From Pirellulales bacterium (GTDB lineage Bacteria; Planctomycetota; Planctomycetia; Pirellulales; JAEUIK01), in NCBI GenBank assembly GCA_019745975.1, contig JAIESQ010000060.1, forward strand, positions 1 through 64,000: a stretch of DNA of 64,000 bases, read 5' to 3'. The position numbers and the translations under genes are program-made. Positions 13,115 through 15,622 of the stretch are shown here, piece after piece. The notes below the pieces were generated by a model. The model made no database searches. It saw nothing but the letters and a program-made list of their open reading frames with translations, and was not told where the DNA came from. The first letter of the stretch is position 1, and every line of letters starts with the position of its first letter.

Positions 13115-14008
13115 ATGTCGAACATGAAGAAGCGCGAACGCATTCTTGCCATCATCGTTGGTCTGCTGGCCGTGGGAGTCGTCGGCAACTGGGTCTTCTC
13201 GCGCATGCTGCAAGGTCCCTTGGCGCAGCGCCAGGAGCGCGTCAAGAAGCTGAAGTCGGACATCGAAAAGCGCCAGGCTCACTTGCGCCGCGCGCGTCAA
13301 GCTGGCATCAAGCTGGCAGCCTGGCAGCAGCAATCGCTCCCGTCGAATGTCGAAGTCGCCAGCTCGCTCTATCAAGACTGGCTGCTCGAACTGTTGGGCC
13401 GCGCCGGCTTCAAAAGCCCGCACGTCGATCGCGGCGAGCCGCTCGCCCGCAAAGGGGTCTTTCACCGCTTGCCCTTCGCAGTGCGCGGGCGGGCCACGCT
13501 CGGCGAGCTGACCCAGTTTCTCTATGAGTTCTATCGGGCCGATCACTTGCACCAGATCGCGCGGATCGGCATCACTCCGTTGCCGAAGACCGACCAGTTG
13601 GACCTGAGCCTTTCGATCGAAGCGCTCGTCCTGCCGCGCGCCGAAAGTGGCGACCAGCTCTCGACGCGTAAGAGCGACACGCTGGCTTCGGAGCGGATCG
13701 AAGACTATCAGCCGATCGTCGCCCGCAACCTGTTTGGCCAAGGCGCCGGCGGTACCGACCCCGCCGAGTTCGTGCTGCTGACGGCCGTGACCGATGTCGG
13801 CGGCCAGACCCAAGCCTGGCTTTCGTTGCGCGCGACGGGCGAGGTGCTCAAGCTGCGCCCCGGCGATAGCTTCGAAGTCGGCCAGTTTCACGGCACGATC
13901 ACCGAAATCCGCCCCCCCGACGTGGTGATTCAGGCTGAAGATGAACGCTGGCTGCTGACACTGGGCGACAAGCTCAGCCAGGCGACCGCGCTGCCCCCCG
14001 ATTTCTAA
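13115..14008 (+). CDS. GspM/PilO-like protein with a GspC/PilP-like C-terminal domain
   Basis: 297 residues. A short cytoplasmic N-terminus and one membrane helix (ILAIIVGLLAVGVVGNWVF, about 10-28) come first, then a coiled coil (about 35-75) and a PilO/GspM-like ferredoxin fold (about 80-175, including LPFAVRGRATLGELTQFLYE). From about 200 there is a second part: YQPIVARNLFG, then ATGEVLKLRPGDSFEVGQF and a strand-rich end. This is the pattern of the GspC homology region/PilP, which contacts the secretin. A fused M-C protein would replace the missing gspC. It is the last gene of the run; ATGs at 13115 and 13124 are both possible. Confidence 0.65.
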   Translation: MSNMKKRERILAIIVGLLAVGVVGNWVFSRMLQGPLAQRQERVKKLKSDIEKRQAHLRRARQAGIKLAAWQQQSLPSNVEVASSLYQDWLLELLGRAGFKSPHVDRGEPLARKGVFHRLPFAVRGRATLGELTQFLYEFYRADHLHQIARIGITPLPKTDQLDLSLSIEALVLPRAESGDQLSTRKSDTLASERIEDYQPIVARNLFGQGAGGTDPAEFVLLTAVTDVGGQTQAWLSLRATGEVLKLRPGDSFEVGQFHGTITEIRPPDVVIQAEDERWLLTLGDKLSQATALPPDF

Positions 14009-14152
14009 CTGCATGCATCGAGAATCGTTCGCGCCGCTTCACGAGTTTTCCTGGCGATTCCGTGAGATTTGCGCGAACCAAGCGTGAAAAACTCGCGTAC
14101 CGTTGACAAACCAAAACCACGGGTAGAGACTTCCCTCGTTGGGGGTCTCCTT

Positions 14153-14198
14153 AGAGCCTATCCGAGAACCGCTCGCGAGCGGTTCTCGGATAGGCTCT
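14153..14198. repeat. 46-bp perfect palindrome
   Basis: The 23-bp arm 14153-14175 (AGAGCCTATCCGAGAACCGC then TCG) is followed without spacer by its exact complement at 14176-14198. It lies 62 bp before the thioredoxin-like gene and 145 bp after the secretion operon. As RNA it would form a very stable hairpin without a T run. It could be a transcription attenuator or terminator, a protein-binding site, or the joined ends of a deleted mobile element. Confidence 0.95.
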
Positions 14199-14259
14199 TC
14201 GATGGAACCCGCGCTAGTTGCTGTACCCGGTTCGATCCCTGCCGAGGAGAGTGCCAAAG

Positions 14260-14871
14260 ATGATTCGCAAATTCGCCTGCCCTGCGGCCCTGTTCGTGTT
14301 CGCGATCTCGTATGCCGCGGTCGCCGAAGCTGGCAAATTCAACAAAGTTCTCAGCCCGGGCGATCAAGCCCCGGAGTGGACCAGTCTGGTCGGCACCGAT
14401 GACAAGCAGCACTCGTTGGCCGACTACAAGAACGCCGACGTGTTGGTGCTGGTCTTCACGTGCAATCATTGCCCGGTCGCCATCGCCCTGGAAGACCGCA
14501 TCATCGAGCTGCAAAAGGACTACGCCGGCAAGAAGGTGCAAGTGATCGCGGTCAACGTCAACAAGGGTGAGGACGACGACCTCGATAACATGAAGGAGCG
14601 CGTGACGGAAAAAGGCTTCAACTTCCCCTACTTGTTCGACCCCAGCCAGGCGATCGCCCGCGATTATGGCGCGCGCGTCACGCCCGACGTCGTCGTGCTG
14701 AACAAGGCCCGCAAGGTCGTCTATACGGGCGCGATTGACGACAACTGGAAAGACGCGACGAGCGTCGGCCATCGCTATGTTCGCGATGCCATCGACGCCA
14801 CGCTGGGAGGCCAAGAGCCCAAGGTGACCGAGACGCGCGCCGAAGGCTGCGGCATCAGGTACGAGAAGTAA
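14260..14871 (+). CDS. exported thioredoxin-like (redoxin) protein with CNHC motif
   Basis: 203 residues. The ATG at 14260 has GAGGAGAG upstream and a clear signal peptide (CPAALFVFAISYAAVAEAG). A redoxin/AhpC-TSA-type thioredoxin fold follows, with FTCNHCPVA placing the CxxC pair at C68 and C71. The cis-proline is in ARVTPDVVVLN. This C-N-H-C-P-V variant is typical of a TlpA-related family common in planctomycetes and differs from the WC-PC of classical thioredoxins. Thiol-disulfide exchange or peroxide reduction outside the cytoplasm is likely. A second thioredoxin-like gene follows 124 bp downstream. Confidence 0.85.
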   Translation: MIRKFACPAALFVFAISYAAVAEAGKFNKVLSPGDQAPEWTSLVGTDDKQHSLADYKNADVLVLVFTCNHCPVAIALEDRIIELQKDYAGKKVQVIAVNVNKGEDDDLDNMKERVTEKGFNFPYLFDPSQAIARDYGARVTPDVVVLNKARKVVYTGAIDDNWKDATSVGHRYVRDAIDATLGGQEPKVTETRAEGCGIRYEK

Positions 14872-14995
14872 GCGACGCCTGGCTGCTTACACAGAATGAT
14901 CCGTCGCCGTCGGCAACCCTCGGGACGCCGGCGGCGACGTTTTCTTTTCGGGCAACGATTTTCGCCGGTGCAGCCTGCCTGCGGGGGAGCTACCG

Positions 14996-15622
14996 ATGAC
15001 AAACTCGAGTTCCTTGTGCCGAATGGCTGGCTTGCTCTTGACCGGCTTTCTCCTAGCCACGGGCTGCTCCGGGCGATCACCGACGTCAACCGGTGAAGCA
15101 CCGAGCAACCTATCGGACCAAACGACCGATCAAGCAGCTCCTGCGGAAGCCAGCGCCGCCGCGACGAACGAGCCCGCCATCAAAGTGGTCGACGCCCAAG
15201 GGCTCGACGAGATCATCGAGAACAACGAAGGGCGCGTCGTGTTGGTCGATTTTTGGGCCACCTGGTGCAGTCCTTGCAAGAAGATGTTTCCGCATACGGT
15301 CGAGCTTGCGCGCCAGCACGCCGCCGAGGGGCTCTCCGTCGTCACTGTTTCGTGCGACTCCGCCAAGGCGGAGCCCCAAGTGGTGGCGTTCCTGCAGCAG
15401 TTTCCCGCGCAAGAAGCGGCCCTCGAACACGTGCGCGTGGCCGACGATCGCACCTTCGTCGACGATTTCAAGATCGAGAATGGTACGCTTCCCTACCTGC
15501 GCATCTACGGCCGCGATGGCCAGGTGCTGCGCACGTTCGTGCAAGGCGATCCGCAGGGATCCGGCTTCGACGACGCTGACGTCGAAGCGGCGGTCAAAGA
15601 GGCTCTGGCCGCCGGAAAATAG
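14996..15622 (+). CDS. thioredoxin-family lipoprotein (TlpA-like)
   Basis: 208 residues. The lipobox LATGC puts the lipidated cysteine at position 24, followed by a disordered Ser/Thr/Ala linker to about 60. The thioredoxin domain has DFWATWCSPCKKM with the redox pair C91-C94, and the cis-proline in NGTLPYLRIYG. It is predicted to be a membrane-anchored thiol-disulfide oxidoreductase, as in TlpA/ResA-type proteins. The G-x-L-P-Y-L cis-Pro loop is unlike the ITS-P consensus of TlpA but acceptable. RBS GGGGGAG lies upstream. A HEAT/TPR protein follows on the same strand. Confidence 0.88.
   Translation: MTNSSSLCRMAGLLLTGFLLATGCSGRSPTSTGEAPSNLSDQTTDQAAPAEASAAATNEPAIKVVDAQGLDEIIENNEGRVVLVDFWATWCSPCKKMFPHTVELARQHAAEGLSVVTVSCDSAKAEPQVVAFLQQFPAQEAALEHVRVADDRTFVDDFKIENGTLPYLRIYGRDGQVLRTFVQGDPQGSGFDDADVEAAVKEALAAGK

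Follow-up and report, generated by a model that had tools for sequence, protein, structure and literature searches.

A 46-bp perfect palindrome in a Pirellulales genome is very probably an IS5-family (IS1031-like) MITE that has lost its middle

The palindrome is intergenic in the window, the 64,000-nucleotide stretch of DNA analysed here, between a reading frame that ends at 14008 and a redoxin/thioredoxin-like gene that begins with the ATG at 14260, with 61 bases between the palindrome and this ATG. The gene (14260-14871) has a neighbour on its own strand (14996-15622), and both are of the thioredoxin fold; together they cover 14260-15622. The first-pass annotation had described a 46-bp perfect palindrome with 23-bp arms and no spacer, and in the assembled sequence it is found exactly so: 14153-14198 reads AGAGCCTATCCGAGAACCGCTCGCGAGCGGTTCTCGGATAGGCTCT, with arms of 23 nt, a complementarity of 100% and a spacer of 0 nt. 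When the spacerless palindromes of the window were ranked it came first by far, followed by arms of 10, 9 and 8 nt, and when the window was simulated 100 times by a first-order Markov model the longest arm was 13 (mean 8.87); arms of 23 bp are far beyond chance. The biological unit is however 44 bp and not 46 bp, 14154-14197, since the outermost A/T pair is part of the flanking TTA and TTC. In this core the end repeat GAGCCTATCCGAGAACC occurs twice, back to back. The features are the following:

14151-14153, plus strand: TTA, left copy of a presumed 3-bp target duplication (from the sequence; TTA/TAA flanks are identical in 28 of 41 family pairs)
14154-14197, no strand: probable collapsed MITE of 44 bp, two 22-nt half-elements head to head forming a perfect spacerless palindrome (from the sequence, the palindrome ranking and the alignment to other copies)
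14154-14170, plus strand: left terminal inverted repeat GAGCCTATCCGAGAACC (same ends in the same genome, in other genomes of the order and at IS5-like insertion sequence ends, exact or with up to 4 mismatches)
14169-14182, plus strand: internal palindrome CCGCTCGCGAGCGG, also carried by left ends of further MITE copies in this genome
14181-14197, minus strand: right terminal inverted repeat, the reverse complement of GAGCCTATCCGAGAACC (from the sequence, the copies in the same genome and the alignment)
14198-14200, plus strand: TTC, agreeing with TTA at 2 of 3 bases and presumably the right copy of the target duplication after decay (from the sequence and the alignment)
14260-14871, plus strand: redoxin/thioredoxin-like gene, downstream neighbour outside the element (Pfam Redoxin and AhpC-TSA)

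The 246 bases surrounding the palindrome have partial matches elsewhere in the genome (6.98 Mb, 204 contigs), most of them running from about the edge of the palindrome to 14182, which is nucleotide 29 of the element, on either strand. Compared with seven left ends of copies in the same genome, nucleotides 1-29 are identical at 24-28 of 29 positions, the nearest left end (on contig C161) differing at only one, and beyond nucleotide 29 the identity to the same seven ends drops to 3-4 of 15. The left end of the long copies reads GAGCCTATCC.AGAACCGCTCGCGAGCGG with small variations and then continues into CGTTTGG, and CCGCTCGCGAGCGG is present without change in four of the seven left ends compared. 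After nucleotide 29 the window element continues for 15 nt, and these are the right terminal repeat; a GG is common to the left end and the right repeat where they meet. This suggests a deletion joint at the GG of 14181-14182, and the break in identity at nucleotide 29 fits what a deletion joint predicts. Since the left end holds the palindrome CCGCTCGCGAGCGG, which overlaps the terminal repeat, such a joint automatically gives a perfect palindrome of 44 bp. Among the copies compared there was no long one with exactly the terminal repeat of the window at both ends.

It was possible to find a family of such elements in the same genome. The first-pass annotation had proposed a search for the arm in the genome and at insertion sequence ends; the 16-nt end GAGCCTATCCGAGAAC was found at 21 places with up to 2 mismatches, as compared to 8 for the reversed control, and similar ends bound insertion sequences in other genomes, but not the DUF4096 element of this one. 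Two of the 21 places are the palindrome itself, and some of the sites with 2 mismatches must be chance. Contig C152 carries two such ends as a facing pair at a distance of 301 bp, and there are similar long copies on C69 (274 bp), C51 (275 bp) and C71 (297 bp). With the 301-bp copy as query, 13 matches were obtained in the genome. The window palindrome, matched once on each strand, accounts for two of them, and four are near full length (C152 itself, C69, C51 and C71). In six other genomes of the family the query had no match. In the complete elements of this genome the flanking bases match at 3 of 3 positions in two of eight, at 2 of 3 in three, including the window copy, and at 0-1 of 3 in the remaining three. 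A second short facing pair, 42 bp with mismatches in its ends and flanked by AAA and TTT, is present on C91, and the collapse may thus have happened more than once. There is also a 78-bp element on contig C203 of G000 (L015:1501-1578) with such ends, 1-2 mismatches in each; inside, it consists of a terminator-like hairpin with a T-run after it (AAAACGGCCGGCAACGCCGGCCGTTTTT).

The ends are also found elsewhere in the order. The pattern TTAGAGCCTATCCGAGAAC, with up to 2 mismatches, gave 78 matches in G034 and 119 in G037, two genomes from other families of the order, and 10 in the genome of the window, against 0, 4 and 0 for the reversed control. At least one match to TWAGAGCCTATCCSAGAAC, with up to 1 mismatch, was present in 47 of the 246 genomes sampled from the order, that of the window included, as compared to 3 of 246 for the reversed control. 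Exact TTAGAGCCTATCCGAGAACC was found in 27 stretches of named records, all titled Planctomycetota or subgroups of it and several of them Pirellulales, 16 of the 27 coming from a single genome (JACQFF). In 114 loci there were 41 facing pairs of ends, and 28 of these had identical 3-bp flanks (15 TTA and 13 TAA); in three pairs (1277, 2696 and 681 bp) other elements or unrelated DNA lie between the ends, and without these pairs the count is 27 of 38. Most of the 114 loci were fetched by patterns containing TTA at one end, so that independent evidence comes from the other flank only. A further 15 stretches gave 14 facing pairs, all except L213, with identical 3-bp flanks in 8 of the 14, one of them TGA/TGA (L214); one element of this set, L207, had already been counted among the pairs of the 114 loci. 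No description of the family was found in the literature searched, a scope that leaves out most subscription journals and does not prove absence, and judging by title none of the papers containing the string GAGCCTATCC concerned bacterial repeats, among the matches listed.

Several other arrangements with the same ends were observed. MITEs of 99-117 bp are abundant, and inside them motifs similar to GGGGACTGTCCCC surround a TTTTGC core (L059, L064, L070, L073 and L076 in G037; L072, L078, L084 and L087 in G034), and interiors resembling theirs occur in G138 and G040, genomes of other families. In G197 (L201-L205, L220-L223) elements of 66-68 bp have exact ends and diverged interiors at a nearly constant length; the idea that these interiors are unrelated was dropped, as by eye they appear related when both strands are compared. 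A different dispersed repeat of about 125 bp adjoins a MITE in L072 (about 1699-1822, on contig C83 of G034), and more copies of it were seen on contigs C111, C93, C108, C3, C199 and C208 of G034.

Candidates for the parent of the family are insertion sequences of about 0.9 kb. L107, 916 bp long, has such ends, TAA/TAA flanks and two reading frames, in which Pfam finds DUF4096 (E 1.6e-21) and DDE transposase domains (E 1.5e-13 and 7.4e-13). A fragment from its C-terminal end had matches in 80 of 246 genomes and none in the genome of the window, where 16 of 22 candidates were scored. Thirty loci matching the L107 transposase were inspected, and at four of them both ends are present, with up to 4 mismatches and at a distance of 903-944 bp: L118 has exact ends and TAA/TAA flanks, L128 has TTA/TTA flanks and a single open frame of 285 codons, and L117 and L119 have TTA on one side, TAA on the other and two overlapping frames. 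Identical TTA or TAA flanks are thus seen in three of the five parent-like elements, and TTA/TAA in two (L117 and L119); in the four besides L107 the transposase is assigned by similarity to L107, Pfam having been applied to L107 alone. Facing ends were found at 8 of the 30 loci, single or non-facing ends at 13 and no such end at 9, and the facing-end loci L122 (233 bp), L124 (545 bp), L135 (614 bp) and L132 (950 and 1806 bp, with unfitting flanks) were set aside. Tails of transposase genes, about 35-46 codons with 76-93% identity, were also seen in G024, G040, G053 and G054 (for instance L133, L137 and L141), beside the same terminal repeat where checked and often at contig ends; they can be partial copies that keep the end of the transposase gene, or repeats that break the assembly.

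The one DUF4096 element in the genome of the window was considered as a parent and rejected, its best surrounding inverted repeat (AGAACAAGTCTTCA) being unrelated. G034 and G037, the two genomes where these ends are most numerous, gave no DUF4096 match and are absent from the genomes that match the L107 fragment. The source of the transposase may be lost, may be in unassembled parts, or may be too diverged for these searches. According to the available part of PMC12016507, ISLrh of the IS1031 group has 17-bp ends GAACCTGTCTAGTATCT (GAACCT...), a TNA target, a 3-bp direct repeat and two overlapping frames. The relatives described here are closely similar in their size of about 0.9 kb, their GARCC-type end of about 17 bp, their TNA-type target and, in three of the five, their 3-bp direct repeat, and, as far as the same part of PMC12016507 goes, also in their DUF4096 and DDE transposase (by Pfam on L107) and in the two overlapping frames of some copies. 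The parent thus appears to be an IS1031-like member of the IS5 family, a group name that is based on the ends, the target and the portion of PMC12016507 available. The window element differs from this group in being 44 bp long and without a transposase gene, and the searches of its own genome gave no transposase that matches.

It is very probable that the palindrome is an IS5-family (IS1031-like) MITE that lost its middle. The terminal inverted repeats are common to several dispersed copies in the genome, there is no transposase gene inside, the element being only 44 bp, and a transposase-bearing element with the same kind of ends is found in other genomes, although not in this one. The suggestion in the first-pass annotation of a dimer of mobile-element ends was right in substance: what forms the arms is the terminal inverted repeat found at the ends of an IS5/IS1031-like MITE family. 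Bacterial MITEs, as described in the accessible parts of PMC3852290, PMC10969869 and PMC5896051, likewise have no ORF, terminal inverted repeats, multiple copies and, in some, a short target duplication, and according to the same portion of PMC3852290 they often have only borders of less than 20 nt in common with the parent. The size is different, 44 bp as compared to the 100-400 bp that the part of PMC5896051 seen gives as typical, and there is no interior, hence the spacerless palindrome. Against the reading of a deleted MITE it should be said that the window flanks, TTA and TTC, differ, and that the full duplication is found in just two of the eight elements of this genome.

We propose that a long non-autonomous element, of which copies of 274-301 bp persist in this genome, would have entered a TTA site. 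An internal deletion in place would afterwards have joined the left end, 29 nt ending in CCGCTCGCGAGCGG, to the right terminal repeat at the shared GG, leaving 44 bp; the right TTA would then have decayed to TTC, and the 44-bp form would have lost its mobility. The order of these events, and that the deletion occurred in place, we infer from the sequences compared. The 44-bp form is an unusual product of an ordinary process. Among 396 genomes, searched with exact 15-nt ends, there were four elements in three genomes with 4-34 nt between the ends and four in one genome with 35-65 nt, and the window copy is the shortest of these eight and the only spacerless palindrome among them.

Another, unlikely, explanation is copy-back, in which replication switched strands at the CCGCTCGCGAGCGG of one left end and made the second arm from the first. 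The arms are exactly identical, as this would give, and the central palindrome would be a natural turning point; the joint by itself does not distinguish copy-back from deletion, the terminal repeat being alike on the left and on the right. Copy-back has however no reason to halt at the boundary of the element, yet the symmetry stops one base past it, and the right flank retains the TT of the expected TTA. It is also conceivable, at a quite low probability, that the end-to-end unit of 44 bp is a minimal transposable substrate, far below the usual size of a MITE and still mobilisable by an IS5-type transposase, perhaps as an extruded hairpin. The 396 genomes, searched with exact 15-nt ends, gave no other copy of the 44-bp form, and the form is probably immobile.

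A hairpin selected for a function in the host, as a bidirectional transcription stop, an mRNA-stability hairpin or an operator for the redoxin gene, is very improbable. Its position is intergenic, 61 bp before the start codon, and the folding is strong (-69.4 kcal/mol, z -5.56, for the 131-nt RNA context; -26.4, z -10.59, for the 46 nt as DNA), but the parts of the palindrome are accounted for by the MITE family, the stem is not followed by a T-run and the site showed no conservation in the relatives compared. No terminator-like site was found on either strand of 13900-14400, which speaks against the transcription stop, in the sense of an intrinsic terminator, of the first-pass annotation; of its protein-binding site we retain only that such ends would be expected to bind a transposase, and nothing observed points to a host regulator. 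A scan of 13900-14400 for sigma-70 promoters gave none. An Rfam family was considered and rejected, the three hits, with two microRNA-precursor models, being far below the gathering scores. If the palindrome affects the redoxin gene, as a hairpin in the leader, this would be incidental.

The palindrome had also been called conserved, and this found no support. The intergenic stretch was compared with 39 relatives, 10 candidates being scored per genome, and gave just short matches to the repeat itself; no relative aligns across the site, and neither an orthologous intergenic region nor an empty site was found among the 39. The 29-nt half-element, with up to 3 mismatches, is confined to one of the 246 genomes of the order, that of the window, with seven matches there. 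In a trial for an empty site, a copy in G034 was compared with the congener G054, and the alignment was too poor to read.

A REP (repetitive extragenic palindrome) moved by a RAYT tyrosine transposase is hardly credible: like the GTAG- and CGTC-tagged palindromes in the part of PMC3733652 at hand, which reports REPs from Planctomycetes, the element is a short intergenic hairpin repeat, but neither GTAG nor CGTC abuts it (the flanks are CCTTA and CATCGAA), its stem is 21-23 bp as compared to the 5-13 bp given there, and the family ends with TTA/TAA flanks are of a kind that fits a DDE transposase.

The palindrome is thus most likely a genomic fossil of an ordinary sort rather than a regulatory signal of some new type, and a striking perfect palindrome is explained by ordinary transposon decay. 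This suggests a simple rule: in an element whose terminal repeat continues into an internal palindrome, one deletion can be enough to yield a long perfect palindrome. The comparisons also outline a MITE and insertion sequence family in Pirellulales, with GAGCCTATCCSAGAAC ends and TTA/TAA flanks, which could serve to mask false 'regulatory palindromes' in these genomes.
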